This document shows positions 1 through 15,904 of a stretch of 64,000 bases of DNA, one piece after another (within the stretch, counting starts at the first letter, position 1; each line of letters begins with the position of its first letter). The position numbers and the translations under genes were made by a program. The notes under the pieces are model-generated. The model was not told where the DNA came from and searched no databases. It saw only the letters and a list, made by a program, of their open reading frames with translations. The stretch is from Rhizobium sp. CB3090 (GTDB taxonomy: Bacteria; Pseudomonadota; Alphaproteobacteria; Rhizobiales; Rhizobiaceae), in NCBI RefSeq assembly GCF_029714285.1, contig NZ_CP121664.1, positions 372,001 to 436,000 of the forward strand, given 5' to 3'.

Positions 1-223
1 AGTCATCATTCTCGATCGTGACGGAAAAGGCGCGGTCCGTTGAGCTTGCCCCCACCCAGCCCACCAGCTCGCCAGCGCCATGAACACCGAATGAGAAGAG
101 ACCGCGGCTGTCGGTACTGAGAGGCCGATAGAAATTGTCCTGCTTTTCACCGTTAAGCCATTCGGACACTTCGCCGGTTGTGAGTGCCGTCGCCTCGAGT
201 TTAAGCGTCAAAATTTCGGTCAA
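1..223 (-). CDS. Hypothetical protein, N-terminal part, runs off left edge
   Basis: An open frame on the minus strand runs from a TTG at 223 to the window edge, about 74 codons without a stop. An in-frame TAG lies three codons upstream of the TTG, so the start is constrained to this TTG or a later codon. The peptide begins MTEILTLKLEATALTTGEVS and includes a Gly/Val/Phe-rich stretch (LFSFGVHGAGELVGWVG). I do not recognise the family. The codon choice looks coding, but the ribosome site (GTAGGGC) is weak. Confidence 0.4.
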   Translation of the reverse strand, partial: MTEILTLKLEATALTTGEVSEWLNGEKQDNFYRPLSTDSRGLFSFGVHGAGELVGWVGASSTDRAFSVTIENDD

Positions 224-759
224 CTTGCCCTACCCAATCACTGTTTTTTGTCGCGCGCGCTCGCAGTGACGGCAAACAACTGGCCCCCTGTCAGCTACTA
301 ACGAAAAATTGATTGACCTCAAATAGCCTTTTCTGGCTATTTCGCTCATGTCTTCTTCATCGGACGAAGCGATTTGACCTTTGAGCAAATTCGCCGCTCA
401 TGGCGCTATCAAGACGCGTATCAGTGTTTCGATGCGGTCCGTCTTTGCTCGGGGATTAACAGCGAGGCATGGCAATGGATGTAGCTTCCACAATATGGCG
501 CTCGATCCAAGTTCCTTGCCGAGCAATCGCCCCAGCCAAATATCAAGTCCGCTTCCTCAATCACCGCCGGCGGATAGAGCCTGCCTTATGCCGCTCACCT
601 TTCTGGCGAGGGGCCGCAAAGTATGAGAACCAAGGCGATGTCTCTCCCAGTCGTATGGCGACACTTTCGCTCCTACGAACAGCGGTACGATCCTGCTCGC
701 CGTTCATCGCGGGGATCGAACATCCATTGCGCTAGATCGCGCTGCTGCGCTTTTGAAGG

Positions 760-1200
760 ATGATATCATGCCCTCTACATGCTGCACGGCTCTATAACGG
801 CTTCTGGTGCACGCGCGACCGCAGCCTGCTAAGTCAGCCTAGCGCCGATGCCGCCAAAGTGCGGATGTATGAATTGTTTGGAAACGACTTGCAAAGCGTG
901 GGGCCTTCTTTCGGATATAACCTCCCACTCTACGTGTGGTGCGCGGAAGTCTTAAAGGATTTTTTAGCTCGCCGTGCGCCCCTACCGAACCTTCAGTTGG
1001 ATCGGAGCCGTTATCAGGGGGAGATGTTGCTTATCGCAGCAGGGAACGATGTCATATTCTCTCCGGCGATGGGCAAAGCTATCGTTTCAGCCTATCCCAA
1101 AGCACGATTCTTATTGGTTCGAGGTGGCCACCGGCTGGATCTGATCACGGGTACCACCGTTCCGTTCGCCGAGCGTACTTTTTGCATGGCCTCCGCGCGC
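760..1200 (+). pseudogene. Possible alpha/beta-hydrolase remnant
   Basis: The frame from 760 contains a stretch resembling the C-terminal acid and histidine loops of alpha/beta hydrolases: LLIAAGNDVIFSPAMG, then VSAYPKARFLLVRGGHRLD. In such folds the Asp and His would be catalytic residues. A shifted frame at about 776 reads YMLHGSITASGA, which could be the oxyanion-hole HG region, so the gene may have been broken by frameshifts. No nucleophile elbow (G-x-S-x-G) is visible in frame. Assignment is tentative; it could be chance similarity. Confidence 0.25.
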
Positions 1201-1623
1201 ATGACACAACCGTGCTCCTGGACTTCCCCCGTCAGCCAGCCGGCGTTCGCCGGAGTGAAAGAGCAACGGAGCCGAGCGCATGTCTGGCGTGACCCGTTTG
1301 CCGAGCCAGCCGAATTTTCCAGCACGCTGTCGGTTCGACGGTCCTCGCAACTCCCACCGCCTTCATGAAAGCGGAGCGCAAGGAGTGGGGCAGTCGGTCC
1401 CGCTTCCCCTTCGGGCCACTTTGTTGAAGCTCCTGCGGCTGCTCCCGGTTCCGCTCCTTGCGCGTCGAGAATTCCCGAAATCCCGGCCTGCGGCCGGCGC
1501 TGTGCTGATTTCTCTGATACTCTCCATTTTTGCAGTATTGTGCCTGCCGACCACAAGTCGGGGTAGGCTTGTGACTGCTGCCCGCAACTGCCACATCTTG
1601 ATTCTGCTCCATGCGGATTGAAT

Positions 1624-1639
1624 GTGGTTGCGTAACCAC
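1624..1639. promoter_or_regulatory. Inverted repeat upstream of antitoxin (likely autoregulatory operator)
   Basis: GTGGTT-GCGT-AACCAC is an inverted repeat with 6-bp arms and a 4-bp spacer, ending 17 bp before the antitoxin ATG at 1657. Phd/YefM antitoxins normally repress their own operon through such palindromes, so an operator role is inferred from position. Confidence 0.5.
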
Positions 1640-1656
1640 GAAATTGGAGGCTCGCC

Positions 1657-1911
1657 ATGACCGTCACCACGCTTTCAGGACGAGAACTCAATCAGGATCT
1701 TGGCCGCGCAAAGCGCGCCACCAAGGATGGGCCTGTGATCATCACCGAGAGGGGACGGCCTGCGCATGTTCTCCTGTCGTTCGACGAGTATAAGCAGCTT
1801 ACGGGCAAAATGCGGACGCTCGGCGACATGCTGGCGCCGGCGGGGGCCGAAGACATCGATTTGCCGCTCCCGCAACGCACGGAACACACCCAACCGGTCG
1901 ACCTGTCCTGA
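1657..1911 (+). CDS. Phd/YefM-family antitoxin (left module)
   Basis: An 84-residue protein of the Phd/YefM antitoxin family. The N-terminal DNA-binding part reads TTLSGRELNQDLGRAKRATK, followed by the family pattern GPVIITERGRPAHVLLS and a variable toxin-binding tail. It should neutralise the toxin encoded next door and repress the operon. A strong ribosome site (GGAGG) precedes ATG 1657. The stop overlaps the toxin ATG by one base (TGATG at 1909-1913), typical of coupled translation. It has the same length and layout as the antitoxin at 10265-10519, so the two modules are paralogues. Its cognate toxin is frameshifted, so this copy may survive as an orphan antitoxin or anti-addiction gene. 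Confidence 0.85.
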   Translation: MTVTTLSGRELNQDLGRAKRATKDGPVIITERGRPAHVLLSFDEYKQLTGKMRTLGDMLAPAGAEDIDLPLPQRTEHTQPVDLS

Positions 1912-2279
1912 TGCTATTGCTCGATACCAATGTCGTATCCGAACTGCGCAAGGTTGCAAGCGGCAAGGGTGATCCCAATGTCGCGGTCTGGAACGAAACC
2001 GTCGATCCTGCCGAGAACCTTCATTTCATCTGTCGTCCTGCACGAGCGGGAAATTGGCGTTCGGCTGGTGGAGCATAATGATCCGGCCGCATCCTACCTC
2101 TGGACGAGGCGGCGGCCGTCCAGGCGGCCCAATGGCATGTGCCCGATCCCAAACCGGTCAACGACGCCTATATCGCAGCGACAGCCTTCATCCGTCGCAT
2201 GACGCTGGTCACACGCAACGTCAAAGATTTCGAGGGCATGAGAGTTGCACTCGTCAATCCGTGGAAGCATTCAATATAA
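1911..2279 (+). pseudogene. VapC-like PIN-domain toxin, frameshifted
   Basis: The frame opens MLLLDTNVVSELRKVASGKG, the PIN-domain start with its first metal-binding Asp. It is continuous through LHFI at about 2030, then must shift to continue with SSVVLHEREIGVRLVEHNDP. It shifts again to finish with NDAYIAATAFIRRMTLVTRNVKDFEG and VNPWKHSI at a TAA (2277-2279). The late part contains the C-terminal motif TRNVKDFEG typical of FitB/VapC RNases. Two or more indels therefore separate the conserved blocks, and no single frame gives a full-length toxin of about 138 residues. The intact relative is at 9846-10268. Confidence 0.8.
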
Positions 2280-2590
2280 TCTTCCTAAGAATCCCACGGC
2301 GATCGCTCGTATGATCTGCGAACAACAATCATTGCATCGCGCTTGAGGATGGAAGCGGCGCGCTCGCATGCGCAGTTGAACATGTGAAAATCGCCTCCCC
2401 GCGCGCGGATGCATGGGAAGAAGATCAGCCAGGGCGAGATCGGCACGTGCGTTCCGCCGAGATCAGTTCAGATCTGCCGAGATGCGAACGGAATCTCGGC
2501 ATGACCGCGAGCTTCCGATGGCCAAAGGCGATCGGACCTGCTGCTTCCCGCACGGCGGCATGACTGCGCTATTCCTTCTGTTATCCGAGA
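2280..2590. other. Intergenic, no gene recognised
   Basis: About 310 bp between the broken toxin and the 3' end of the MocR-type regulator. A short frame at 2413-2607 on the plus strand has no family features and overlaps the regulator's end. Nothing else is supported. Confidence 0.5.
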
Positions 2591-3994
2591 TTAAAGTTTA
2601 TGTTTAATAGCCTGGCTGAGGCGCTTTGCGCCCTCAACAAGAGTGGTGGGGTGGCCTGCGAAAGTTAGCCGCAGGAACGAGCCTTCTGGGTCCGCGGGAA
2701 ACCATGCGCGACCGGCGCTGATGAAAACACCGTTCCGGGCCATATCCGCAGCGAGCGCGACATCGCAGACGTGATCCGGCAAGCGCAGCCAAAGGTGCAT
2801 GCCTCCGGTCGGCACCTGAAACGTCACGCAATCCCCCGCTTCCTCGCGCAGCGCGCCGACGAGTATATCGCGCCGCTCGATTAGGGCAGCGCAGGCGGCC
2901 TTGAGATGACGCTTCCATCCTGGCGCGGAGACAACGGCCAAAGCCGCCGCTTGCAAGGGGCCGGCCACAAAGAAGTCTTGACTAGCGCGAGCCACCTTCA
3001 GCCGTGCCAGGGCCGCTCCTCGTGCCATGACGGCTGCGACCCTCAAGCCGGGTGCAGCCGATTTGGCAAGGGACCTAATATAAACAACGTGTCCATGGCG
3101 ATCACCCGTCGCAAGCGGAGCCGGTGCATTGCCTGTCAGGTCGAGATCGCGCGCCCAGTCGTCCTCGATGATGAAGGCGCGCGCCTCTGCCGCGATGTCG
3201 AGGACGGCAGCTCGCCGCTCAATCGACGTCACGACGCCCGACGGATTGGAGAAGGTTGGTTGGCTGTAAAAGACCCGGGCCCCCGTCTGTTGGAAGGCGT
3301 CCTCCAGCAGTTCCGGTCGCACTCCGTTTTCGTCCATAGCTACGGGAATGACTTCAAGACCCGCCGCCCGGGCAGCCGAAATGGCGCCAGTATAGGTCGG
3401 GGTCTCCACAAGGATCGGACGTCCAGGCGGCACGAGTGCCCGTAGGGTCGCAGTGATCGCCGCCTGCCCGCCGTTGCATATGATGACGTCATGGGGCGAA
3501 AATACGGCGCCGTTTCCGATCTCGCGCGAGAACCACGCTCGCAATGACTGAAGACCCTCAATCGGCAGTCGATCCCAAAGATCGACACCACCTGCGGCTC
3601 GACGGAGCGCATGTGCCAGAAGGCCAGACGCCTGTAGATCGGGCGGCAGGTAGCCCATGTTCAAGATCAGGCCGTCGGCTGGTGGAAGTGTCAATGAAGC
3701 TTCAAAAAAACCACCGTCTTCACGCGCAGCTCCAAGTGCGACAGATTGCCAAGATAAGTCGACAACTTCGGAGGGACCCGCGGGCGTTTCGCGAACGAAG
3801 GTTCCTTGGCCTGGACGGGGCTCGATCAGGCCTTCGCTGACGAGTTGGGCAAATGCTCGCTCCACCGTCGCGGGACTGACATGGAATTCCTTCATAAGAG
3901 AACGCACGGAAGGCAGTCGCAGCCCGGGCTTTGCCGAGGCTATCTCCCTGCGCAGCGATTGTGTAACGGCCAATAGTCTGTTATCTACTTTCAT
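2591..3994 (-). CDS. MocR/GntR-type regulator with aminotransferase-like domain
   Basis: A 467-residue regulator with an N-terminal GntR winged helix (about residues 10-75: RLPSVRSLMKEFHVSPATVERAF, then LIEPRPGQGTFV). A fold-type-I PLP aminotransferase domain follows, with the Lys motif SLAKSAAPGLR. MocR proteins sense PLP-amino acid adducts and control amino-acid or vitamin B6 related genes. The ATG at 3994 is chosen because the winged helix needs these residues; a TTG at 4000 is also in frame. The start codon overlaps the divergent transporter's ATG (CATG at 3992-3995) and neither has a good ribosome site. An inverted repeat (3980-4010) is centred on this point, suggesting autoregulation. 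It is probably the local regulator of the 3993-9478 gene set. Confidence 0.9.
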   Translation of the reverse strand: MKVDNRLLAVTQSLRREIASAKPGLRLPSVRSLMKEFHVSPATVERAFAQLVSEGLIEPRPGQGTFVRETPAGPSEVVDLSWQSVALGAAREDGGFFEASLTLPPADGLILNMGYLPPDLQASGLLAHALRRAAGGVDLWDRLPIEGLQSLRAWFSREIGNGAVFSPHDVIICNGGQAAITATLRALVPPGRPILVETPTYTGAISAARAAGLEVIPVAMDENGVRPELLEDAFQQTGARVFYSQPTFSNPSGVVTSIERRAAVLDIAAEARAFIIEDDWARDLDLTGNAPAPLATGDRHGHVVYIRSLAKSAAPGLRVAAVMARGAALARLKVARASQDFFVAGPLQAAALAVVSAPGWKRHLKAACAALIERRDILVGALREEAGDCVTFQVPTGGMHLWLRLPDHVCDVALAADMARNGVFISAGRAWFPADPEGSFLRLTFAGHPTTLVEGAKRLSQAIKHKL

Positions 3995-4010
3995 GAGCAA
4001 GATAGATAAC
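3980..4010. promoter_or_regulatory. Inverted repeat over the divergent start codons
   Basis: GTTATCTA (3980-3987) and TAGATAAC (4003-4010) are perfect 8-bp inverted arms with a 15-bp spacer. The spacer contains both proposed start codons of the regulator and the transporter. The centre-to-centre distance of 23 bp places the arms about two helical turns apart. I infer a binding site for the MocR regulator. A site here also raises the possibility that the transporter really starts at GTG 4044. Confidence 0.5.
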
Positions 4011-5252
4011 GCTACTGATCAAAAAAGGGAAACGCTTTCGCTTGTGACGCCTGTTACAGCCGAGACGAACCAGAGGCTGCTTGATTGGTTGCCGGCGAGC
4101 GTTCTAGTGCCCTATCTCATTACCGCCATTGCACTCGCTCTCGCTTATGGTTCAAGCTTTCTGCTTGTGGACGTTATGCGATCCGCAGGCTTTCAGGCAT
4201 CTGCCGCCGGAGGCGTCGTTAGTGCAGGAACCATCGCGACCCTGGTCGGTGCCATTTTCGCGGGGCGGCTGGCGGAATATACAGGTATTTTGCCGCTCGT
4301 TGCCGTCTCTTCTCTTGTCATGGCGGCCGCAATGACCAGCTTTGCCCTGGTCGGAACTGGCGGTCTGGCGTTTGCCTATACCGGTGGCGTCCTGCTCGGT
4401 TTTGGTTGGGCGGTCTGTTACACGCTCGCCCCAATCCAACTCATTGATCGCCTCAAACCTTCCGCTCGCTTGGAAGCTCTCACTCTCCTTTCAGGATCCC
4501 AAATGCTCGGCATCGGCGGATCAGCTCCGCTGGGTCACTTCATTGCTGACCAGATCGGTGATCCCGGTGCCGCTTACGCATTTTATGCCGTCTTCTGCGT
4601 GGTGGCTGCGGTATTCGCCATGTTCGTACAGACGCGTTTGAAGCGCCAGCCGCAACTTTCCGCACGCGCCGTTGCTCTCTCCGTCCCAACGAGCCTGTCC
4701 ATTTTACGTGGTAAAACGGTGTTGCCGGTGATCATGATGGGAATTGGTGCTTGTACATTCGCTGGTCTGTCCACGTTTCAAAGCATATATGCCGCATCGC
4801 GAGGACTTTCACCCAATGTCTTCTTTCTGACATTCACTGTCACGACGGTCGCATTGCGGTTTTCGCTCGCGTCGATGATCGGAAAATTGCCGCTCGGTCG
4901 CCTGGCGCTCGCTCTCTTCGTAACAACACTGATTGGGATCGGACTTCTGGTTTTGAACTCGGGAAGCGCGCTGCTGTATGTCGTCGCCAGCGTTCTCTTT
5001 GCCGTAGGCTACGGCCTCACCTATTCCACCTTGAACGCCATGGTGGTGAACCTTGCTGGCGATCGTGGCCTGTCGATCGCCGTCGCCTCCCAAGTCTTCG
5101 CGCTCGCTTATTTTGCGGGATCGTTCGGCTTCCCGTATTTCGGCGGCATATTAATTGCAGCTCATGGCATCGACGTTGCAATGCTCGTAATGGCAGGGCT
5201 GGTCGCTATCAACATCGCTATCATCAGCCAGACAGTTTGGAGGCCGATGTAG
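3993..5252 (+). CDS. MFS transporter (candidate exporter of the cluster product)
   Basis: A 419-residue major facilitator protein with about 12 hydrophobic segments, beginning with LVPYLITAIALALAYGSSFLL and ending with VAMLVMAGLVAINIAIISQTVW. The substrate cannot be read from sequence; by position in the gene set it may export the N-hydroxylase/cupin product. ATG 3993 overlaps the divergent regulator's start and lacks a ribosome site. An in-frame GTG at 4044 follows AAAAAAGGGA with a long 13-nt spacing and would leave room for a promoter, so the start is uncertain. The N-hydroxylase gene follows after 84 bp on the same strand. Confidence 0.85.
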   Translation: MSKIDNATDQKRETLSLVTPVTAETNQRLLDWLPASVLVPYLITAIALALAYGSSFLLVDVMRSAGFQASAAGGVVSAGTIATLVGAIFAGRLAEYTGILPLVAVSSLVMAAAMTSFALVGTGGLAFAYTGGVLLGFGWAVCYTLAPIQLIDRLKPSARLEALTLLSGSQMLGIGGSAPLGHFIADQIGDPGAAYAFYAVFCVVAAVFAMFVQTRLKRQPQLSARAVALSVPTSLSILRGKTVLPVIMMGIGACTFAGLSTFQSIYAASRGLSPNVFFLTFTVTTVALRFSLASMIGKLPLGRLALALFVTTLIGIGLLVLNSGSALLYVVASVLFAVGYGLTYSTLNAMVVNLAGDRGLSIAVASQVFALAYFAGSFGFPYFGGILIAAHGIDVAMLVMAGLVAINIAIISQTVWRPM

Positions 5253-5336
5253 GAAACCGATCTCGTTATGATTTTCCCCCAATGCTCGATCGGTTACCGC
5301 GCTTAAAGGAAATTTTTTGACCATAGGAAAGATTCT

Positions 5337-6581
5337 ATGGAAATTCTGGATCTCATCGGCATAGGCATCGGGCCCTTCAATCTTAGTCTTGCTGCACTGG
5401 CACATCCGACGCGCCTGCGCACGATTTTTTTCGAAAAGGAATGCAGCTTCGTTTGGCATCCGGGACTGCTGCTGCCAAATAGTCGCCTGCAGGTATCTCC
5501 GCTGAAGGACTGCGTGACGCTTGCAGATCCCACCAGTCCGTTTTCTTTCCTCAACTATCTTGCAACGCACGGACGACTTTACAGTTTCCTGAACCGGCGC
5601 GACGCAACGACGTCACGTAGTGAGTTCACAGACTATTTCCAGTGGGTTGCGCATCACTTGCCCAGCCTTCGGTTTGGCGAGGAAGTCACCGACATCGCCA
5701 AATTCGACAAGGGTTACCGCGTGACGACGAGTCGAGATGACTATCACGCACGCGCGGTTGCGATCGGGGTGGGTGTCGTTCCGAAAATCCCCGAATGCGC
5801 CAAACCCTGGCTGGGCGATAAGGTCTATCATGTGGCGAGCTATCTCCATCAGTCACCAATCGGTGTGGGTGAACGCGTAATGGTTGTCGGCGGCGGCCAG
5901 AGCGGTGCGGAGGTCGTCGAACACCTGTTGGGCAATCCCGATGTGCGCAAGATCATATGGGTGACATCACGGGCGAACCTGTTCACGAGGGATGACAGCG
6001 CTTTTGTCAACGTGGCGTACACGCCGTCTTACAGCCAGCGCTTTCATTCGCTGCCACTTCAGGAGCGTCGGGCTATCGTCGATGAAGAGTTGCTCACCAG
6101 CGACGGCATTTCAGCGGAATTGTGCAATCGCATCTATGAAATTATCTATCATCGCAGCGCGAGCGGCTATAGCGACGATATCATTCAGCTGCTGCCCGCA
6201 GTCGTTATGAAGGAGTTGTCTCCTCATCCACATGGTTGGCAAGCGCTGTTGGCCTCGCGTGGCGCCCCTTTGCGAACAGTAGAGGCCGATCGTATCGTTC
6301 TCGCCACCGGTTTTCAGCCTCGCTCGCTTCCGTTCATCGATCGCCTATTGGCTTCCGCCGCCATCGAAGATGGCCTGCCGGTCGTAGATGAAGATTACGC
6401 CGTTCAATTCAACGACAGTTCCCCAGGCCACGTGTATCTGCAGAACCGGACGCGCGTCCAAAGTGGCTTGCAGAGTGTGAATTTGTCACTCGTAGCGTAC
6501 CGAAATAGTCGCATCGTCAATAGCCTGCTTGGGCGTGATCACTATGCGAACGTCCCAGATCGGCAGATCTTCGGGGGCTAG
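5337..6581 (+). CDS. L-lysine/L-ornithine N-monooxygenase (SidA/IucD family)
   Basis: A 414-residue flavin N-hydroxylating monooxygenase. It would use FAD, NADPH and O2 to hydroxylate the side-chain amine of lysine or ornithine in the cytoplasm. The FAD motif is GIGIGPFNLS (G8 to S17). The NADPH motif is VGGGQSGAE (G185-G190). The family's late motif LATGFQPRSLPF starts near residue 322. Length fits IucD/PvdA enzymes (about 430). It is usually a siderophore enzyme, but no NIS synthetase, NRPS, acyltransferase or TonB receptor is nearby. Instead a cupin and a MetRS-like gene follow, the partners of N-hydroxylases that feed N-N bond formation. A ribosome site AGGAAAG precedes ATG 5337. Lysine versus ornithine preference cannot be told. 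Confidence 0.9.
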   Translation: MEILDLIGIGIGPFNLSLAALAHPTRLRTIFFEKECSFVWHPGLLLPNSRLQVSPLKDCVTLADPTSPFSFLNYLATHGRLYSFLNRRDATTSRSEFTDYFQWVAHHLPSLRFGEEVTDIAKFDKGYRVTTSRDDYHARAVAIGVGVVPKIPECAKPWLGDKVYHVASYLHQSPIGVGERVMVVGGGQSGAEVVEHLLGNPDVRKIIWVTSRANLFTRDDSAFVNVAYTPSYSQRFHSLPLQERRAIVDEELLTSDGISAELCNRIYEIIYHRSASGYSDDIIQLLPAVVMKELSPHPHGWQALLASRGAPLRTVEADRIVLATGFQPRSLPFIDRLLASAAIEDGLPVVDEDYAVQFNDSSPGHVYLQNRTRVQSGLQSVNLSLVAYRNSRIVNSLLGRDHYANVPDRQIFGG

Positions 6582-6756
6582 ATTGATTACCATGCAAGAT
6601 ACAAGAGGATCGATCATTCTCCGCAAGAGCAATGCAGCTCGCCGAACAGCAACGTGCACAAGGATAAACGGGCGACATTTCCATGATCCTGCAAACTGCC
6701 TGGCCCGACCGGTGCAGCTTTGTCAGGCAGATCAATTCTGATGAGGAGACTTACCC

Positions 6757-7536
6757 ATGTTAACTGCAGCACAAAAAGCAACATGGCATAAAACTGGATA
6801 CGTCAAGTTAGAGGAATTTTTCGACCAGGAAAATCGTGAACGTCTCTCAACTCTCGTCGAAGATATTTCGCGCTGGGACATAAGTGACGACAAATGGTTG
6901 ATGTGGTTCGAGAAAACGACGGACAACAGAAAGATAATTTCCAAGGTCGAGAACTTCCTTGAATTTAATGCCCCTCTGCGTGATCTGATGCTGGCTGATC
7001 ACCGGATCAAGTCCATCGTCGAGTCCTTGCTGGAGGAAGATGCCCGGATGCTCAAAGAGCTGTTGATCTTCAAATATCCCGACAGTGGCGGCTATCGCCC
7101 GCATCAGGACATCTACCATGTCCCACATAAGCTGCCGGACCGGATGGTGCATGCGATTGTTGCAATCGGCATCGACGATTCCGGCCCGGACAACGGAGGC
7201 CTTTTCTTCAGCCCTGCAAATCATAAGAAGGGTGTATTCCCGATGGATGCCGGCGGCGTGATTTACCCCGACATCGCGGAAACGTTCGCCTGGGAGCCGG
7301 TATCATGGAAGGCCGGCGACATTTTCATCTTTGACGATTATGCGCCTCATTATTCAAAACCTAATAAAAGTGAAAATTCGCGAAGGGTAATTTACCTGGT
7401 GTTCCAGCGCGCCTCCACCGGAGGGCCAACGCGGGCCGAGTACAACAAACTCAAACGCGCCTACAACCCTCCCGAGGGCAAGGTCTCCGACATCGACGAA
7501 CTCAAGCCCCCGAACGGCATTTTCTATCGCGAGTGA
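6757..7536 (+). CDS. Phytanoyl-CoA dioxygenase (PhyH) family Fe(II)/2-oxoglutarate oxygenase
   Basis: A 259-residue protein of the PhyH family, which also includes free amino-acid hydroxylases and ectoine hydroxylase. The iron facial triad is visible as H116-Q-D118 (in YRPHQDIYH) and H198 (in DDYAPHYSKP). R209 or R210 is placed to bind 2-oxoglutarate. ATG 6757 is preceded by GAGGAG. It sits between the N-hydroxylase (175 bp upstream) and the cupin (21 bp downstream), so hydroxylation of an amino acid precursor or of the hydrazine product is inferred. The gene looks more AT-rich than the catabolic operons farther right, which suggests acquisition by transfer. Confidence 0.85.
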   Translation: MLTAAQKATWHKTGYVKLEEFFDQENRERLSTLVEDISRWDISDDKWLMWFEKTTDNRKIISKVENFLEFNAPLRDLMLADHRIKSIVESLLEEDARMLKELLIFKYPDSGGYRPHQDIYHVPHKLPDRMVHAIVAIGIDDSGPDNGGLFFSPANHKKGVFPMDAGGVIYPDIAETFAWEPVSWKAGDIFIFDDYAPHYSKPNKSENSRRVIYLVFQRASTGGPTRAEYNKLKRAYNPPEGKVSDIDELKPPNGIFYRE

Positions 7537-7557
7537 AGCACCGGATGAGAGGCAGAC

Positions 7558-7887
7558 ATGTATACGAAACAGATCGACGGCTCAATCATGCGCCCGGAGT
7601 ATGGCGTTCTGGTCTGCCGATTGCTTGAACATCTGCCGCAGACGGTCGCAACGGGCTTCGGCACATCGATTGTGGAGGTGGTGGCGAACGGTGCAGTCGA
7701 TCTTCATTCGCACCCAGAGCATGAACTTTGGGTGTTGATCTCGGGCAGTGGCGTGTTCGAGGCCGACGGCGAAACCACGGAGGTCAGTGGGAACACGCTG
7801 CTCTACATAGGGCCACACCAAAGGCACGCTATCAAAAACAGCGACCCTGAAACCAGTCTAAAGTTCCTTTCGATATGGTGGGATTGA
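7558..7887 (+). CDS. Small cupin protein, candidate N-N bond-forming metalloenzyme
   Basis: A 109-residue single-domain cupin. Motif 1 gives H50, H52 and E56 (DLHSHPEHELW) and motif 2 gives H90 (GPHQRHAI), so all four metal ligands are present. In known actinomycete hydrazine synthetases (for example Spb40 of the s56-p1 pathway) a zinc-binding cupin fused to a MetRS-like domain rearranges an amino-acyl hydroxylamine ester into an N-N bond. Here the same two parts are separate: the MetRS-like gene starts 1 nt after this stop. The neighbouring N-hydroxylase would supply the hydroxylamine. As an isolated sequence it could be any small cupin; the functional call rests on context. Confidence 0.75.
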   Translation: MYTKQIDGSIMRPEYGVLVCRLLEHLPQTVATGFGTSIVEVVANGAVDLHSHPEHELWVLISGSGVFEADGETTEVSGNTLLYIGPHQRHAIKNSDPETSLKFLSIWWD

Positions 7888-7888
7888 C

Positions 7889-9478
7889 TTGAGCGCAAAG
7901 CAACAAACTTATTTTGCCTGCTCTGCGCCCCCATGCCCGAACGGAAAGCTGCATCTTGGGCATATTGGAGGGGTGTACCTGCTGACAGACGTGTTCGTAC
8001 GCTACCAGCGTATGGTAGGCAATACTGCCTACCACGTAACAGGTGCGGATGAACATGGCACTTACACGCTGTTGAAAGCCCGCAAGCTTGGCAGGCCGGT
8101 TGATGACGTTGCACAAATGCACATTGACGAAATCCTGCATTGTCTGCGGGTAGTGGATATTGAGCCGGACGTATTTGTCAGGACTTCCAGCGAAGATCAC
8201 AAAGAGCGGAGTCTCGCGATTTACGATCAACTAAGAGCCTCAGGTAACATCGAGCTGCGGGACGGAGAGCAGTTGTATTGCGAGACGTGCGGAGAGTTCG
8301 CAGCAGACTCACTTGCGATCGGACGGTGCCCGGCTTGCAATGCGGAAACAGATAGTAACCTTTGCGAAGTTTGTGGCCTCGCGCTGCAGCACAATCTACT
8401 ACACAATCCTATCCACACCGCATGCGGCTGCAGCCTTATTTTGCGCCCGATCCGCCAGGTGCATTTTAACCTCAAGAAATTTGCTCCAGCGCTTGATGAC
8501 GCCATTGAGACCAGCAGATGGCCGGAGACCATAAAATGCAAAGAACACGACTGGTTACGGACAAAATTGCGGTCATTGCCAATGTCGCGGCATTTCGATC
8601 GTGGTGTGACTTTGAGCTCCCCGCCAGATGTGGCAGGTCAAACTCTACTGACGTGGTTTGAAGGATTGTGGTGCTACGAGACTGGAATCGAACGCATCTG
8701 CAAGCAAAATGGTGCAGATCTTGACGGCATTATGCGTGAGCCGGATACGAAACTCGTATTTTTCATGGGTCAGGATAACCGATTTTATTATACGATCGGC
8801 GTCACTGCTGGTTTGTTCGCGCGTGGTTACGCAATTCCAGACAATCATGCGATCCAGGACTTTTATAAACTCGAAAGCGCAAAATTTTCGACTGGCCGCG
8901 ACCATGCTTTGTGGGCTGACGAGGTGGTTGCAGACATCGATACGAACGTGCTGCGCTACTACCTAGCCAGCATTGCAAAGCCATTTGGCAGAAACGACAA
9001 CAATTTTCTGATCGAGGGGCTGGTTCAGGCGGCGGTGCGCATTGATGCTTTCGAAACGGCTTTGCGCCGACACGCTGGATATAACGAGACGTTGGGGGTC
9101 GACAAACTCACGCGCGAGCAGAACCATAATGCTAAACGGTATTGCGAAGCCATGGAGGACACGCGCGTTTGGGATGCTCTAAATGCTTTAAACGCTTTTT
9201 TCGACGCTGCGAGTTTTTCAAGGACAGGTACCTTGGTCAGCGCAACGGAAATTTCGGTATTCCTGAGCCTTCTTTATCCTGTGACGCCTACACTTGCGGC
9301 TCGCTATGGTGCTTGCTTTTTCGGAACCGGATGGCGACCCGGGTTCTATGACGACCCTATCCAGCCAAGTTCAGGCTCACGGAAACCGATTGATTTTGCC
9401 CGATTTGCACACCCGGTTCCCGCCGCCTTTATTGCAGCTTACGAAAAACGATTCAGGCAACCACAGCCGGAGGCGTGA
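7889..9478 (+). CDS. Methionyl-tRNA-synthetase-like protein, candidate amino-acyl activating half of a hydrazine synthetase
   Basis: A 529-residue class I synthetase relative. The HIGH signature is H22-L-G-H25 (NGKLHLGHIGG). CxxC pairs C131/C134, C147/C150 and C159/C162 form the MetRS zinc insertion. The KMSKS loop is replaced by K332-F-S-T-G-R-D-H. The C-terminal part lacks a recognisable anticodon-binding N..W signature. It should activate an amino acid as adenylate and load it on a hydroxylamine rather than on tRNA. The start is TTG 7889, 1 nt after the cupin stop, so the two are probably translationally coupled. A duplicate resistance-type MetRS is the main alternative, but the altered KMSKS loop and the neighbours argue against it. 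Last gene of the set. Confidence 0.8.
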   Translation: MSAKQQTYFACSAPPCPNGKLHLGHIGGVYLLTDVFVRYQRMVGNTAYHVTGADEHGTYTLLKARKLGRPVDDVAQMHIDEILHCLRVVDIEPDVFVRTSSEDHKERSLAIYDQLRASGNIELRDGEQLYCETCGEFAADSLAIGRCPACNAETDSNLCEVCGLALQHNLLHNPIHTACGCSLILRPIRQVHFNLKKFAPALDDAIETSRWPETIKCKEHDWLRTKLRSLPMSRHFDRGVTLSSPPDVAGQTLLTWFEGLWCYETGIERICKQNGADLDGIMREPDTKLVFFMGQDNRFYYTIGVTAGLFARGYAIPDNHAIQDFYKLESAKFSTGRDHALWADEVVADIDTNVLRYYLASIAKPFGRNDNNFLIEGLVQAAVRIDAFETALRRHAGYNETLGVDKLTREQNHNAKRYCEAMEDTRVWDALNALNAFFDAASFSRTGTLVSATEISVFLSLLYPVTPTLAARYGACFFGTGWRPGFYDDPIQPSSGSRKPIDFARFAHPVPAAFIAAYEKRFRQPQPEA

Positions 9479-9845
9479 CTTTGATCCTGTCTATCGCAGC
9501 GAGATCTGCACGGCGTTTTGACAGAGTCGAGTATTCAACTGCGCGCCGCGCACGGGGCATTAGGTAACCTTCTTATGCAGCGTTCGGCCGATCCTCCGGC
9601 AATTCCTCGATCACCGTACCCTCTTTGGACCGGATCTGGCGCCGCGGCGCGATCGGGTTGGGAACGTGCTCGTGCGATGAGTGCTTTGTTAACGAGATCG
9701 ATTTGTCATCGTTCCATAGCCCAAGGTGGCGACTAAACTTCTCATTTGCTACCTTTTAGCCGCAATAGCGTGGCATCGGAAAATTGGCAATCTCAGCGAT
9801 GACACCGAAAAAGACATCAGCTCGCGAGTATCCACGCGCCTGATG
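9479..9845. other. Intergenic with a short open frame of unknown origin
   Basis: About 370 bp between the MetRS-like gene and the right toxin-antitoxin module. On the minus strand an open frame without a Met (about 9755 to 9573) ends with HVPNPIAPRRQIRSK, then EGTVIEELPEDRPNAA and a TAA. It reads like the C-terminus of a real protein, but I cannot name it. It may mark the scar of an insertion or deletion at this junction. No clear terminator hairpin was seen. Confidence 0.3.
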
Positions 9846-10268
9846 TCATTCGCACCATGGATCGACGACGACCACGCCGGTACCATCGAAATCTTGAACA
9901 TTCCGTGTGACCACAGTTAAACCGTGAGCCAGCGCGGTCGCCGCTATCAAGGCATCGGCTTCGTTGCGGCGATCTGGGATATGTAAGTGGGCACAACGCG
10001 TTGCTATCGCGTCATCTATTGACAGAACTCGCTCTGCGAACTCAGGGCGGACACGGCTGTCCATCCATGCCCGCAGGCGAGAACCTTGGGAAACGTCTCG
10101 TCGCTGGATGCTTAATATCCCGCGCTCAAGTTCCAAAATCGTAATCGCGGAAATGAATAGGTCGTTGGAGTTTTGAGCACCGACCCACTTCGTCACATTC
10201 GGATCAGCTTTACCGTCTCCGACTTTACGCAGCTCGGAGACGACGTTTGTATCCAGCAGATACTTCAA
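9846..10268 (-). CDS. VapC/FitB-like PIN-domain toxin (right module)
   Basis: A 140-residue PIN-domain ribonuclease toxin. The N-terminus MKYLLDTNVVSELRK carries the first catalytic Asp and a Glu. A middle Glu is in ITILELERG. The C-terminal acidic cluster lies in RRNEADALIAATALAHG and TRNVQDFDG. It would cleave RNA unless bound by the antitoxin. Its start overlaps the antitoxin stop by 4 nt (10265-10268), giving translational coupling. It closely resembles the broken toxin at 1911-2279, and the two modules bracket the N-hydroxylase/cupin set in opposite orientation. Confidence 0.88.
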   Translation of the reverse strand: MKYLLDTNVVSELRKVGDGKADPNVTKWVGAQNSNDLFISAITILELERGILSIQRRDVSQGSRLRAWMDSRVRPEFAERVLSIDDAIATRCAHLHIPDRRNEADALIAATALAHGLTVVTRNVQDFDGTGVVVVDPWCE

Positions 10269-10519
10269 GACAGATCGACTCCGCGAGGTGCAATTTCGGC
10301 TCGGGGTGGATCGAAATCGATGGCTGACAAACCGGGCATTGAAAGAGCATCGACAAGATTGCGGCGCTTGCCGGTCAAGCGCTCGAACTCGCTGTAGGTC
10401 ATCAACACATGGGACGGCTTCCCGCGATCCGTGATAACCACGGGCCCTTTATTGGCAGCCTTCTTTGCCCTACTCACGTCGTGATTCAACTCCCGGCTAG
10501 ATAAACTCGTGATGCCCAT
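10265..10519 (-). CDS. Phd/YefM-family antitoxin (right module)
   Basis: An 84-residue antitoxin with the family pattern SLSSRELNHDVSRAKK, then GPVVITDRGKPSHVLM. I chose ATG 10519 over an in-frame ATG at 10531. GGAGG sits just upstream of 10519, inside the longer frame, and this gives exactly the length and ribosome-site layout of the left antitoxin (84 residues, GGAGGCTnnnnATG). The operator-like repeat at 10531-10548 then lies directly upstream. It should bind the toxin at 9846-10268 and repress the operon. Confidence 0.87.
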   Translation of the reverse strand: MGITSLSSRELNHDVSRAKKAANKGPVVITDRGKPSHVLMTYSEFERLTGKRRNLVDALSMPGLSAIDFDPPRAEIAPRGVDLS

Positions 10520-10530
10520 AGCAGCCTCCA

Positions 10531-10548
10531 TGTAGGAACATGCCTACA
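10531..10548. promoter_or_regulatory. Inverted repeat upstream of right antitoxin
   Basis: TGTAGG-AACATG-CCTACA has perfect 6-bp arms and a 6-bp spacer, starting 12 bp upstream of ATG 10519. By analogy with other Phd/YefM operons it is probably the autoregulatory operator. Its sequence differs from the left module's repeat (GTGGTT/AACCAC), so the two modules may not cross-regulate. Confidence 0.5.
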
Positions 10549-10803
10549 TATAGGATATTGTTTGCTGCGAGGCAATGCCCGCCTTGAACCACTTAGTTTG
10601 AACCGACCGGCCCAGATTTTAAATGCCCCAGTCTGCCTGGGAGTGTGTGATCATTTCCGCTTTCACTTGTCTCGGCGTCGGATTGGGAACATAAGGTTGT
10701 CGTAGTTCGGGATGCTGCCCCGTTAACTCAAATGAAAGTCAAAGGATCGGCGTTTGCGTCGAGCAATCTTGTCGTGTCCGGCAGTAGGGGCGTATAAGAC
10801 GCT

Positions 10804-11412
10804 ATGACGTCTGATTCAAAGATTTTTGTCGGCCTAAGACCGACGCGGAAGAAACCGGCTGAACATCGCGAAACAAGTGGCCCGAGATGCCAATGGGACG
10901 GGTGCGACAACCAAGGCATGCATCGCGCTCCCGTAGGAGCAGATGCTGAGGGGCTGTATTTGCTGTTTTGCCGTAGCCACGCAAAAGAGTACAGCGAGGG
11001 CTACAATTATGTGACGAAACTGTCGAACCCTGTCACCGCCCGCTACCAGAGAGAAGCGGCAAGTGGCAGCCGTCCTAGCTGGGGCGTTAGAGTCAATCAC
11101 TCTTCTGAAACGCCCCTCCCCTCCTCAATTCGCTCCGGGACCGCGAAAACGATCAATGCAAGAAAAAACGCTATACAAAGGCAAGCGGCGAAAGCGGTCG
11201 TTCAATCCCGCAAACTTAAGGTGCTGGAAGCACAAGCATTCGAAACTCTCGGTCTTTCACCGAGCGCAACGCCGGATGAAATTAGAAGCCGTTACAAGCA
11301 GAGGCTCAAGATGCACCATCCCGACGCAAACGATGGAGACCGCACATCGGAGGAGGCACTTCGGGCGACGATTGACGCCCATAGAATCCTGAAGCTCAAT
11401 GGCTTCTGTTAG
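10804..11412 (+). CDS. J-domain protein with N-terminal Cys/His region
   Basis: A 202-residue protein with a C-terminal J domain (about residues 140-202): AFETLGLSPSATPDEIRSRY, then the HPD motif in KMHHPDAND, which stimulates Hsp70 ATPase. The N-terminal half carries CQWDGC and, further on, FCRSHAKEYSEGYNY. Its Cys/Cys/Cys/His pattern could bind zinc. This arrangement is known in alphaproteobacterial J-domain proteins. It stands alone on the plus strand and is unrelated to the flanking accessory genes. It probably marks the boundary of the island. Confidence 0.85.
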   Translation: MTSDSKIFVGLRPTRKKPAEHRETSGPRCQWDGCDNQGMHRAPVGADAEGLYLLFCRSHAKEYSEGYNYVTKLSNPVTARYQREAASGSRPSWGVRVNHSSETPLPSSIRSGTAKTINARKNAIQRQAAKAVVQSRKLKVLEAQAFETLGLSPSATPDEIRSRYKQRLKMHHPDANDGDRTSEEALRATIDAHRILKLNGFC

Positions 11413-11556
11413 GTGCGATACCCACTGGAGCGCCTTGAGGGGATATGAACCGGCAACGCCTAACTCAGACGGTTTAAGTACTTGAAAAGGCCGACTTCGG
11501 GGCATAACAGCTATTTATGGAACTTGCCCCTCGGTCGGGAATGCCGGAATGGCACA

Positions 11557-12441
11557 TCAGCCCATGCGTTCGGAGGCGTGGCTTCCGGGGCTGGCGGGGA
11601 AGACGACGGTGCGGTTGGCGTCGAGGAAGGTGCGGAAGTGGATATGCGCATGGATGGCGCGGGCCAGCACCTGGCTTTCGACATCGCGGCCGATCGAGAC
11701 ATAATCCTCGGCCGACTGCGCATGCGTGATGCGGACCGTGTCCTGCTCGATGATCGGACCTTCGTCGAGATCGCCGGTGACGTAATGTGCCGTCGCCCCG
11801 ATCAGCTTGACGCCGCGCTCATAGGCCTGCTTGTACGGGTTGGCGCCTTTGAAGCTCGGCAGGAAGGAATGGTGGATGTTGATGATCTTGCCCGACATCT
11901 TCTTGCACATGGCGTCCGACAGCACCTGCATGTAGCGGGCCAGCACGATCAGTTCGGTGCCTGTCTGCTCGACGAGGTCCAGCAGTTGCGCTTCGGCCTG
12001 CGGCTTGTTGTCCTTCGTCACCTTGATGTGGTGGAAGGGGATGTCGTGGTTGACGACCACCTTCTGGTAGTCGAAATGGTTGGAGACGACGCCGACGATG
12101 TCGATCGGCAGCGCGCCGATCTTCCAGCGGTACAGCAGGTCGTTGAGGCAATGGCCGAAGCGCGACACCATCAAGAGCACCTTCAGGCGCTCGCTGCCGT
12201 CATGCACTTCCGCATCCATGCCGAACCTCTCGTAGATCGGCTTGAAGCCTTCCTTGATCTCCGCAAGGGTGGCGCCCTCTTCGGAAATGAAGCTGACGCG
12301 CATGAAAAACTTACCGCTATCGAGGTCGTCGAACTGCGAACTGTCGATAATGTTGCAACCCTTTTCGGCGAGATAGGTCGAAATCGCCGCCACGACGCCG
12401 CGCGTCGACTTGCAGGTTACCGTCAGCGTATAATTTTTCAT
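11557..12441 (-). CDS. purU: Formyltetrahydrofolate deformylase
   Basis: A 294-residue protein with an N-terminal ACT domain (LTVTCKSTRGVVAAISTYLA) and a C-terminal formyltransferase-fold hydrolase domain. The motif HHSFLPSFKGANPYKQAY and, later, GATAHYVTGDLDEGPII contain the family's catalytic His and Asp. It hydrolyses 10-formyl-THF to THF and formate. It is the last gene of the minus-strand block with ligM- and metF-like genes. There it would regenerate free THF and discharge the methyl carbon as formate. The gap to the ABC ATPase upstream is 93 bp. Confidence 0.93.
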   Translation of the reverse strand: MKNYTLTVTCKSTRGVVAAISTYLAEKGCNIIDSSQFDDLDSGKFFMRVSFISEEGATLAEIKEGFKPIYERFGMDAEVHDGSERLKVLLMVSRFGHCLNDLLYRWKIGALPIDIVGVVSNHFDYQKVVVNHDIPFHHIKVTKDNKPQAEAQLLDLVEQTGTELIVLARYMQVLSDAMCKKMSGKIINIHHSFLPSFKGANPYKQAYERGVKLIGATAHYVTGDLDEGPIIEQDTVRITHAQSAEDYVSIGRDVESQVLARAIHAHIHFRTFLDANRTVVFPASPGSHASERMG

Positions 12442-12534
12442 GTTTCACCAGTTGAGATGAAGGTTCGGCTTTGCAAAGACGAAGCCCCGAAGGGCAGGAA
12501 GAGACAGAGCAGCGTCGCGCCGGTTCGACGCCGG

Positions 12535-13248
12535 CTACGAAGATCCAACAGCAGGCAATCCCAGGTGACGCTCGAGCATAGTCTTGTCGGAGGCAAGCTC
12601 GGCAGATTGTTCATCGAGGACGATCTTTCCCTGGTCGAGAACGACGACACGCTCGGCAAAGGTTAGAGCAAGGGAAATGTGCTGTTCGACCAGCACGATC
12701 GTATGACCGCGCGCGGAAAGTTCTCGGAAAACCGCCATCAGCATTTCGCAAATGACCGGCGCCAATCCCTCGAGCGGCTCGTCAAGCAGAATTATCTCGG
12801 GCCTGCCAAGCAGTGCCCGAGCGATCGACAGCATCTGCTGCTCGCCGCCGGACAATTGCCGCCCGCCATTGTGTCGGCGCTCCTTCAACCGGGGAAAAAG
12901 GTCATAGGCCTCCTTCAGGCTTGCGCCGTTGCGGAGCCCGGCAATCAGGTTTTCCTCGACCGAAAGCGAAGGAAAAATGTCGCGTGTCTGCGGAACGATG
13001 CCGATGCCCAATCCGGCCCTTGCGTGAGCCGGTAGAGCGTTTAGCACCTGACCTTTGAAATGTACGGTCCCGGCATGTTGGCGCGTCTGACCCATGATCG
13101 TCGAAAGCGTCGTGGTCTTTCCAACGCCGTTTCGTCCGATGATCGCGAGGCGCTCGCCCTTGGAGACGCAAAGCGACATATCGCGGATGATGTGGGTCTC
13201 GCCATACCCGGCGACCACGCCCCTCAATTCCAGGAAAGGATCACGCAT
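12535..13248 (-). CDS. ABC transporter ATP-binding protein, LivF family
   Basis: A 237-residue ATPase of the branched-chain amino acid/amide type. Walker A is GRNGVGKTT, the signature is LSGGEQQMLSIARALLG and Walker B is IILLDEP. I chose ATG 13248, which begins at the conserved core and overlaps the LivG-type gene by 8 nt. A longer start at 13278 would lie inside that gene. With its partner ATPase and two permeases it energises uptake of the ligand bound by the protein at 15905-17074. Confidence 0.9.
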   Translation of the reverse strand: MRDPFLELRGVVAGYGETHIIRDMSLCVSKGERLAIIGRNGVGKTTTLSTIMGQTRQHAGTVHFKGQVLNALPAHARAGLGIGIVPQTRDIFPSLSVEENLIAGLRNGASLKEAYDLFPRLKERRHNGGRQLSGGEQQMLSIARALLGRPEIILLDEPLEGLAPVICEMLMAVFRELSARGHTIVLVEQHISLALTFAERVVVLDQGKIVLDEQSAELASDKTMLERHLGLPAVGSS

Positions 13249-13990
13249 GGGCGCCACCCAGATACAGCTCCTGGACACGTCGATCCGCCGTCACCTCTTC
13301 CGGCCTTCCTTCCATCAAAACGGCTCCGTTCACAAGCACGATGATTCGATTGGCAACCTCGAAAACCAGTTGCATGTCGTGCTCGATGATTAGCACGGAG
13401 AGGTCCGGCGGCAGACGCTTGATAGCTTCGACGATCAGATGGCTTTCCGTGGAGGGAACGCCCGCAGCCGGTTCATCAAGGATGAGTATCTTCGGTTTGA
13501 GGGCCAATGTCAGCGCCAGTTCGACAAGCCGCTGTTGTCCGTAAGCCAGGCTTCGCACCTGGCGGTCAGCCAGCGGCGTCAGCCTGAAATCGATCAGAAG
13601 CTCACAGATCTCTGCCTCGATCTCCTGTCTGCGATCCGCGCTGCAGAAAATCCTGGACGTCAGCCGCTCCCGTTCGAGCATGGGCAAGCGCAGATTTTCC
13701 CGGACGGTTAGATCCTTGAAGAGATTGGTAATTTGAAAGGTCTTGGCGATGCCGGCGCGCACGCGCGCCGCCTCGGACATTCCGGCAATGTCATGACCGT
13801 CGAGCAAGATCGACCCCGAGCTGGGCTGGAGAACGCCGGTTATCAGATTTGCGAAAGTTGTCTTGCCGGCGCCGTTGGGACCAATGAGCGCCGTCCTCGA
13901 CCCGGGCGGCAAAGTGACCGTAACGTCGCGGGCCACCTGCAGCCCGCCGAAACTTTTGCACAAGCCGCTGATTGCCAATCCTTGCGTCAT
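13241..13990 (-). CDS. ABC transporter ATP-binding protein, LivG family
   Basis: A 249-residue ATPase with Walker A GPNGAGKTT, the LivG-typical insertion FKDLTVRENLRLPML and Walker B ILILDEPAAG. The signature is degenerate (SLAYGQQRLVELALTLA in place of LSGGQ), as is common in LivG. It forms a heterodimer with the LivF-type ATPase, whose start it overlaps by 8 nt. Its start touches the stop of the permease gene at 13990. Confidence 0.9.
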   Translation of the reverse strand: MTQGLAISGLCKSFGGLQVARDVTVTLPPGSRTALIGPNGAGKTTFANLITGVLQPSSGSILLDGHDIAGMSEAARVRAGIAKTFQITNLFKDLTVRENLRLPMLERERLTSRIFCSADRRQEIEAEICELLIDFRLTPLADRQVRSLAYGQQRLVELALTLALKPKILILDEPAAGVPSTESHLIVEAIKRLPPDLSVLIIEHDMQLVFEVANRIIVLVNGAVLMEGRPEEVTADRRVQELYLGGAHA

Positions 13991-14979
13991 CAGTCCCTCC
14001 TCCCGAAGGTGCGGATGAGGCGGTCAGGCAGCGAAATTAGTCCCTGTGGTAGCGCGAACACCACGATCAGGAGCATCGCACCGATGACGAACAACCAATT
14101 GAACGGATCAATGCTGGCTGCCACGTGATGGACGACCATGAATATCAAGGTGCCGATGATCGCGCCGTAAAGCCGCCCGGCGCCGCCGAGGATCAACATC
14201 ACCATGACGTCGGCGGAAAGAGAGAAATTGAATACCTCGATACCAACAAGTCCTGTAACCTGAGCCGCAAGCGCCCCAGCCATTCCTGCGATCGCGCCTG
14301 CCAAGACATAGACCGTGACCTTGCGGCGATAGACAGGTGTGCCCATTGCGCGCATCCGGCTTGAGCTCCCCTTTATTCCCCGAAGCGCAAGCCCGAATGG
14401 GGAGCCGACAACGAGGCGACAAAACAGCAAGACGCCAAACAAAATACAGACGCTGTAGATGAAGGCGACCTGGCCGACGAAATCGAACTCGAACCGCCCG
14501 AAGATCGGAGAAACGGTTATCCCCGCCAAGCCATCTGCGCCGCCTGTCAGCCACCGAGCCTTCGAGGCGGCCTCCTGAAGAACCATGGCAACTGCGATCG
14601 AGATCATCAGGAGGGTCATGCCATTGGTGCGCATGAGAACAAGACCCGACAACCAGGCGATCAGCGCGCCGGCCAAAGCGCCGACGAGAAGCCCAACCAG
14701 CGGATCGGAAGAGATATGCAATGCGACGAGGCCGGCGGCATATGCGCCGCATCCGTACATCGCCGCGTGCCCCAGGGTCGCAACGCCCGCATATCCGAGG
14801 ACGAGATCGAACGACAGGACGAACACCATCATGATCACGATGCGCGTCAACAGCGCGAGATCATAGGGAAACAAGAAGAAGGCTGCACAGGCTGCGAGAA
14901 CGACGATGACCATCGGCCAGATCGAACCGACGGAAAACGCACGAATAAGGGCGGAAGGTCGGCGTGCTAGCTCGGTCAT
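13990..14979 (-). CDS. ABC transporter permease, LivM family
   Basis: A 329-residue membrane protein with about 9-10 hydrophobic segments and the LivM signature GYAGVATLGHAAMYGCGAYA followed by a conserved Gly-rich block (MLILGGAGRLYGAIIGT). It forms the channel with the LivH-type permease, whose gene it overlaps by 4 nt (14976-14979). Confidence 0.9.
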   Translation of the reverse strand: MTELARRPSALIRAFSVGSIWPMVIVVLAACAAFFLFPYDLALLTRIVIMMVFVLSFDLVLGYAGVATLGHAAMYGCGAYAAGLVALHISSDPLVGLLVGALAGALIAWLSGLVLMRTNGMTLLMISIAVAMVLQEAASKARWLTGGADGLAGITVSPIFGRFEFDFVGQVAFIYSVCILFGVLLFCRLVVGSPFGLALRGIKGSSSRMRAMGTPVYRRKVTVYVLAGAIAGMAGALAAQVTGLVGIEVFNFSLSADVMVMLILGGAGRLYGAIIGTLIFMVVHHVAASIDPFNWLFVIGAMLLIVVFALPQGLISLPDRLIRTFGRRD

Positions 14980-15839: not shown

Positions 15840-15904
15840 TCACGAAGCCTTCGACAAAACAGGAGCGGCCTTGGCGTGGTGGCACCGCCTCCACGCCAAT
15901 CACA

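Follow-up and report, generated by a model that had tools for sequence, protein, structure and literature searches.

The stretch analysed here (the window) comprises 64,000 nucleotides of contig NZ_CP121664.1 from Rhizobium sp. CB3090 (positions 372,001 to 436,000), and its subject is a block of six genes at window positions 2591–9478. The initial annotation had placed a MocR regulator, a transporter, a SidA/IucD-type N-hydroxylase, a PhyH oxygenase, a cupin and a methionyl-tRNA synthetase (MetRS)-like protein in this block, and the coordinates, strands and Pfam families of all six were confirmed. The MocR-type regulator, which combines GntR and aminotransferase-like parts and belongs to the pyridoxal 5'-phosphate (PLP) proteins (2591–4000, minus strand), diverges from the other five genes, all on the plus strand. 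These encode an MFS transporter, presumably an exporter (3993–5252; MFS_1), a flavin adenine dinucleotide (FAD)/NADPH amino-acid omega-N-hydroxylase (5337–6581; Lys_Orn_oxgnase, E 1.6e-102), a PhyH-type Fe(II)/2-oxoglutarate oxygenase (6757–7536; PhyH, 7.2e-34), a stand-alone cupin as the putative N-N forming half of a hydrazine synthetase (7558–7887; Cupin_2, 8.7e-11), and a stand-alone MetRS-like protein as its putative amino-acid-activating half (7889–9478; tRNA-synt_1g, 2e-69). Gaps of 84, 175, 21 and 1 bases after the MFS, N-hydroxylase, PhyH and cupin genes, respectively, suggest a single operon running from the MFS or N-hydroxylase gene through the MetRS-like gene. All six reading frames are free of internal stops, and the ratios of nonsynonymous to synonymous substitution rates (dN/dS) against relatives are 0.04–0.22 where estimable. 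The set is intact, lies on the nod/nif plasmid of a bean-type nodule bacterium, and very probably serves to link two amino acids by an N-N bond.

The cupin and MetRS-like proteins are two separate, unfused proteins in the window. In the hydrazine synthetases PyrN and RHS1, which pair a zinc cupin with a MetRS-like part, the cupin metal residues have been described, including an essential Glu (PMC8664883). The window cupin keeps all four metal-site residues (H50, H52, E56 and H90) at the PyrN positions, the Glu reported essential among them. This H/D-x-H-x3-E ... H site is retained in 38 of 39 full-length cupin matches, the window copy (L001) included, and in 11 of 12 distinct sequences; the sole exception (H90Y, L018) is situated in a broken cluster. 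The MetRS-like protein has a MetRS-like fold with ATP-binding motifs of the HIGH and KMSKS types (HLGH and KFSTGR), and in fold comparison it lies nearest PyrN (37.0, against 32.7 for housekeeping MetRS), at roughly 23% sequence identity with the PyrN domain across the fold. Likeness to PyrN and RHS1 thus covers the four cupin residues, the MetRS-like fold with its lysine-bearing KFSTxR loop and a linked N-hydroxylase; unfused cupin and MetRS-like proteins are likewise known from Rhodococcus, as RHS1 (PMC8664883). A difference from PyrN is that a PyrN Arg, guessed to bind Glu, aligns with Tyr301 of the window protein. ATP-dependent, tRNA-independent formation of an N-N bond by the two proteins is predicted from these features.

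The Pfam and NCBIfam matches of the MetRS-like protein are MetRS families, and phmmer scores it highest against Pyrococcus MetRS (157.5 bits, with 144.8 for PyrN), as would be expected of a spare or antibiotic-resistant MetRS with unrelated neighbours. This explanation is nevertheless extremely improbable: the protein misses the cut-off of every one of the seven listed NCBIfam methionine--tRNA ligase models (247 bits at best, where 587 is required), the genome has a separate housekeeping MetRS, the fold is nearest PyrN, and the N-hydroxylase, cupin and MetRS-like genes recur together across the lineages examined. In an unrooted tree, the MetRS-like clade lies outside the housekeeping MetRS clade. 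The material examined likewise turned up none of the three outcomes that the initial annotation named as speaking against a hydrazine cluster, namely grouping of the MetRS-like protein with housekeeping or resistance MetRS, grouping of the cupin with unrelated sugar or auxin cupins, and strict linkage of the N-hydroxylase to a siderophore pathway elsewhere.

Compared with PDB chains, the N-hydroxylase keeps the Lys of LQVSPLKD, the Asn of DDSAFVN and the Ser of NLS, like MbtG and PvdA but unlike 6xbb, DfoA and the putrescine enzyme; in PvdA/SidA these residues contact the alpha-amino acid. All nine aligned N-hydroxylases of such clusters keep them, and an amino acid is therefore the probable substrate. 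Lysine is the likeliest candidate by analogy, since several characterised pathways use it; a diaminobutyrate enzyme has also been described (PMC11705231). An SDG motif was rejected as a marker of hydrazine N-hydroxylases, as among 81 remoter homologues 39 carry SDGI as well. Enzymes of the SidA/IucD type mostly serve siderophores, and the highest-scoring PDB match of the window enzyme is 6xbb, presumably a cadaverine N-hydroxylase and not a lysine enzyme. Moreover, PyrN without an active cupin gives an N-acyl hydroxylamine (PMC8664883). The block's product might accordingly have no N-N bond and be N-hydroxylated or a hydroxamate, resembling a siderophore or being an aminoacyl-hydroxylamine, with the cupin serving some other purpose. 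This is very unlikely given that the cupin retains its four residues and recurs with the N-hydroxylase and MetRS-like genes, and that a Pfam scan of 28 window proteins found no siderophore synthetase, acyltransferase or nonribosomal peptide synthetase (NRPS) family. That scan was confined to these 28 among the window's open reading frames (a first set at E 1e-3, the others at E 1e-8) and includes the six block proteins and the next two downstream; within it, the earlier statement that siderophore genes are absent beside the N-hydroxylase holds.

The fourth enzyme departs from the known pathways. The catalytic residues of PhyH, H116-x-D118 and H198, are invariant, and the protein would stand in for the Spb39/Tri27-type FAD oxidase of actinomycete pathways. 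With the FAD oxidoreductases of loci L056, L066 and L067 as queries, presumed to be of the Spb39 type, no match was obtained in window positions 1–16000 at E 1e-3. It is highly likely that the block as a whole encodes a hydrazine pathway, as the initial annotation proposed; the separate housekeeping MetRS, the fold nearest PyrN, the cupin site and the position in the tree all support that proposal. From gene content, catalytic residues and fold, we infer the following reactions. A basic amino acid, lysine being the likeliest, would be oxidised by the N-hydroxylase at its side-chain amino group, giving a hydroxylamine. The MetRS-like protein would spend ATP to activate a second amino acid and attach it to the hydroxylamine as an unstable ester, from which the metal cupin would form, by rearrangement, a dipeptide-like hydrazine with an N-N bond. 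PhyH would then hydroxylate this product or cleave it via hydroxylation next to nitrogen, pointing to a second chemical use of the N-N product, while the MFS protein would export the product and MocR would control the operon.

Of the characterised systems, s56-p1 (Spb38-Spb39-Spb40) and its relatives making hydrazinoacetic acid share with the window the N-hydroxylase and the cupin and MetRS-like parts, but in the window the latter two are separate and the FAD oxidase, which has no homologue in positions 1–16000, gives way to PhyH (PMC11705231). The initial comparison with s56-p1 therefore stands for the N-N step and fails for the step that follows, and glycine and lysine as the two amino acids would be no more than candidates for the window. 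In the albofungin cluster, the MetRS-like, cupin and lysine N-hydroxylase genes (Afn8/Afn9/Afn18) are separate as in the window, but this is an actinomycete polyketide cluster with a hydrazine transferase, and PhyH is unmentioned there in the available text (PMC11705231). Fused cupin-MetRS clusters also occur on rhizobial plasmids. Sinorhizobium meliloti SM11 pSmeSM11b (L066, 4624–12669), an accessory plasmid, carries a fused cupin-MetRS, an N-hydroxylase and an FAD oxidoreductase adjoining NRPS genes, and five further Sinorhizobium records match this cluster. An N-hydroxylase/FAD oxidoreductase/cupin-MetRS cluster on R. rhizogenes pC5.7b (L067, 1–12033) neighbours TauD-type dioxygenase, dapA-like, PEP-mutase-like and MFS genes.

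The order MocR-MFS-N-hydroxylase-PhyH-cupin-MetRS is shared with Rhizobium sp. CCGE531 (91–96% identity; MocR 93%) and Mesorhizobium amorphae (71–82%; MocR 78%), and an N-hydroxylase-MFS-PhyH-cupin-MetRS order plus a PLP enzyme is found in the Ralstonia group (L016, L017), Pseudomonas (L019, L020) and Bradyrhizobium (L021). Because gene order is conserved in relatives, the block is not a chance neighbourhood. The PLP enzyme is a stand-alone, aminotransferase-like protein encoded directly after the MetRS-like gene in L014–L017 and L019–L021 (Mesorhizobium, Ralstonia-group, Pseudomonas and Bradyrhizobium loci); its nearest curated models, for three proteins scanned, are YczR, MppQ, PdxR and GntC, all below cut-off. 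It was not found beside the cluster in the Rhizobium loci.

Several points weigh against a hydrazine pathway as drawn above, beginning with the phmmer and PDB scores already given. The MetRS-like clade is not joined to the fused hydrazine synthetases in the unrooted tree, the cupin metal is predicted from the site residues, and the PhyH structure model is of medium confidence (predicted local distance difference test score, pLDDT, 77.8). The genome has no orthologue of the PLP enzyme, the best match being MocR itself at 32%, and the Rhizobium pathway may therefore be shorter. The cluster is also broken in many Phaseolus plasmids, and so is unnecessary for nodulation.

The contig of the window also holds three NodA genes and NifH, with the block about 106 kb from nifH, which places it on the symbiotic replicon, a location that the initial annotation had missed. 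Among 394 evenly sampled genomes of the family, the MetRS-like gene (E <=1e-60) is present in five and NodA in 23 (two weakly), all five carriers of the former having the latter. Within the genus, the respective counts are 19 and 65 of 148, with NodA in 19 of 19 carriers (hypergeometric probability 3e-8, ignoring shared descent of plasmids). Plasmid records containing at least 80% of the MetRS-like protein number 37, of which 36 are from Rhizobium and one from Mesorhizobium. In the three Phaseolus plasmids examined, the cluster remnants sit between nodA and nodD2. Relatives occur in Ralstonia-group and Pseudomonas strains, however, and the chemistry is therefore not tied to nodules as such.

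Decay is seen in relatives with a phaseoli-type nodA, a gene present in 23 Rhizobium genomes, 17 of which have the MetRS-like gene (two split, one a fragment). Full PhyH, cupin and MetRS-like frames, the three genes to which this count applies, are present in 10 of the 17 and not in the other seven. On p42d of CFN42, the N-hydroxylase, PhyH and over half of the cupin have been lost, with an IS3-like element there by open reading frame (ORF) reading, and at two Phaseolus loci (L034 and L035) the MFS gene is cut and MocR absent. IS3-type insertion sequences lie at the left end of the cluster in L026 (12643–13833, by ORF reading) and L034 (11208–12310, annotated); on these insertion-bearing plasmids, MocR and some or all upstream genes are gone. 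Six genomes with a NodA set like the window's (G526, G430, G413, G434, G432 and G475) lack the MetRS-like gene, and given this absence and the decay in Phaseolus genomes, the pathway is sporadic in occurrence and nodulation can do without it. Such decay could mean that the block is a symbiotic-plasmid passenger, the remains of a former hydrazine pathway without function in this host. Little probability attaches to this for the window itself: the six genes are open in both the window and CCGE531, and dN/dS between the two is 0.06–0.21.

Regulation of the block is likely to involve MocR. The first in-frame ATGs of the divergent MocR and MFS genes overlap at 3992–3995, the MFS start probably being 3993, and they lie inside an inverted repeat, GTTATCTA-N15-TAGATAAC (3980–4010). 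CCGE531 has identical arms and Mesorhizobium (L014, L015) keeps part of them; this repeat is a likely candidate MocR operator. Control by NifA was rejected, as a scan of window positions 1–16000 for the -24/-12 element TGGCACG-N4-TTGC at up to one mismatch, coupled to TGT-N10-ACA within 200 bases upstream, returned no NifA/RpoN site. Nod-box control was also rejected: a nod-box consensus matched nothing in the window, and two nod boxes on p42d (2 and 3 mismatches) are located elsewhere, neither positioned to drive the cluster. A sigma54-like site upstream of the N-hydroxylase gene on the Phaseolus plasmid of L034 (12894, one mismatch) was discarded for want of TGT-N10-ACA within 200 bases upstream.

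Such promoters belong instead to a Lotus-type cousin. Loci L059 and L065, stand-ins for the M. loti R7A locus because their promoter matches that of msi280, resemble the block in PhyH (79–80%), in having an N-hydroxylase and a hydrazine-synthetase-like protein, and in lying on a nod/nif replicon or island; they differ in the N-hydroxylase (35–36%), in a fused cupin-MetRS (29–30% over the MetRS part) and in a NifA/sigma54-type promoter. L059 has five sites that differ from TGGCACG-N4-TTGC by one base at most, three of them with TGT-N10-ACA in the 200 bases upstream (100 shuffles: mean 0.01, maximum 1); L065 likewise has three NifA-type sites and L013 one. In both L059 and L065, the site before the N-hydroxylase gene, TGGCACGTTCGATGC, is identical at 15 of 15 bases to the msi280 site of Sullivan et al. 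2013 (Table 1; PMC3538637), where msi280 is annotated 'L-lysine 6-monooxygenase'. In nodules, the signal of an msi280::lacZ fusion was 371.6 units for R7A and 7.3 for a nifA2 deletion, with no-fusion controls of 6.4 and 10.0, respectively, and the msi280 mutant is marked Fix+ (PMC3538637). The Lotus-type set thus seems to be turned on in nodules that fix nitrogen, with the promoter match suggesting that PhyH and a fused synthetase lie behind msi280 in R7A. As the first 16 kb of the window is without such a site, NifA regulation is the cousin's and not the window copy's. Upstream of the hydrazine genes in L059, a radical SAM/SPASM gene (7702–8556) lies behind another NifA-type promoter (7354), the R7A counterpart of which, with the same sequence, is reported as facing no annotated gene (PMC3538637).

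Hydrazines are reactive compounds, seldom found in nature, that bind PLP enzymes, and a pathway for them on nod/nif replicons would add an unlooked-for class of small molecule to the nodule. The initial annotation knew of no such cluster in this group. For the enzyme class this needs correcting, since rhizobial plasmids carry fused synthetases and Table 2 of a 2024 review counts Q8KGM6 of Mesorhizobium japonicum R7A, presumably the fused cupin-MetRS protein of the msi280-type locus, among identified hydrazine synthetases (PMC11705231), a single table entry that already puts the class on record in rhizobia. For the cluster type it stands: the literature searched, with subscription papers and supplements beyond reach, holds no description of it, its PhyH or a tie to symbiosis. 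The available main texts are without 'rhizobi' in the hydrazine synthetase paper (PMC8664883) and without 'hydrazin', 'N-N bond', 'cupin', 'tRNA synth' or 'phytanoyl' in the M. loti NifA regulon paper (PMC3538637). The proposed chemistry is known and the make-up new, with PhyH replacing the FAD oxidase, MocR and MFS attached, and a symbiotic replicon as location. A more far-reaching proposal, possible but doubtful, is that root-nodule bacteria produce a dedicated symbiosis metabolite, a hydrazine amino acid that is hydroxylated or released by PhyH, and that its pathway is driven by NifA along with nitrogenase in Lotus mesorhizobia and travels between nodA and nodD2 in bean plasmids. In the window strain, the PLP-binding MocR would sense the hydrazine by reaction with PLP and open the exporter, and PhyH would represent a new kind of enzyme for processing hydrazines, having displaced the FAD oxidase through recombination into the oxidase gene. 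The cousin's N-hydroxylase promoter has been published as strongly active in bacteroids (PMC3538637), and existing strains such as msi280::lacZ make the nodule question testable at once.

Scans of the window with Rfam (gathering scores) and for tRNAs gave no matches. The block is bounded by two vapBC-like toxin-antitoxin pairs (window 1654–2270 and 9846–10531), which are in opposite orientation and 39–49% alike; alignment of the left toxin gene spans more than one frame, and the gene appears to be broken.
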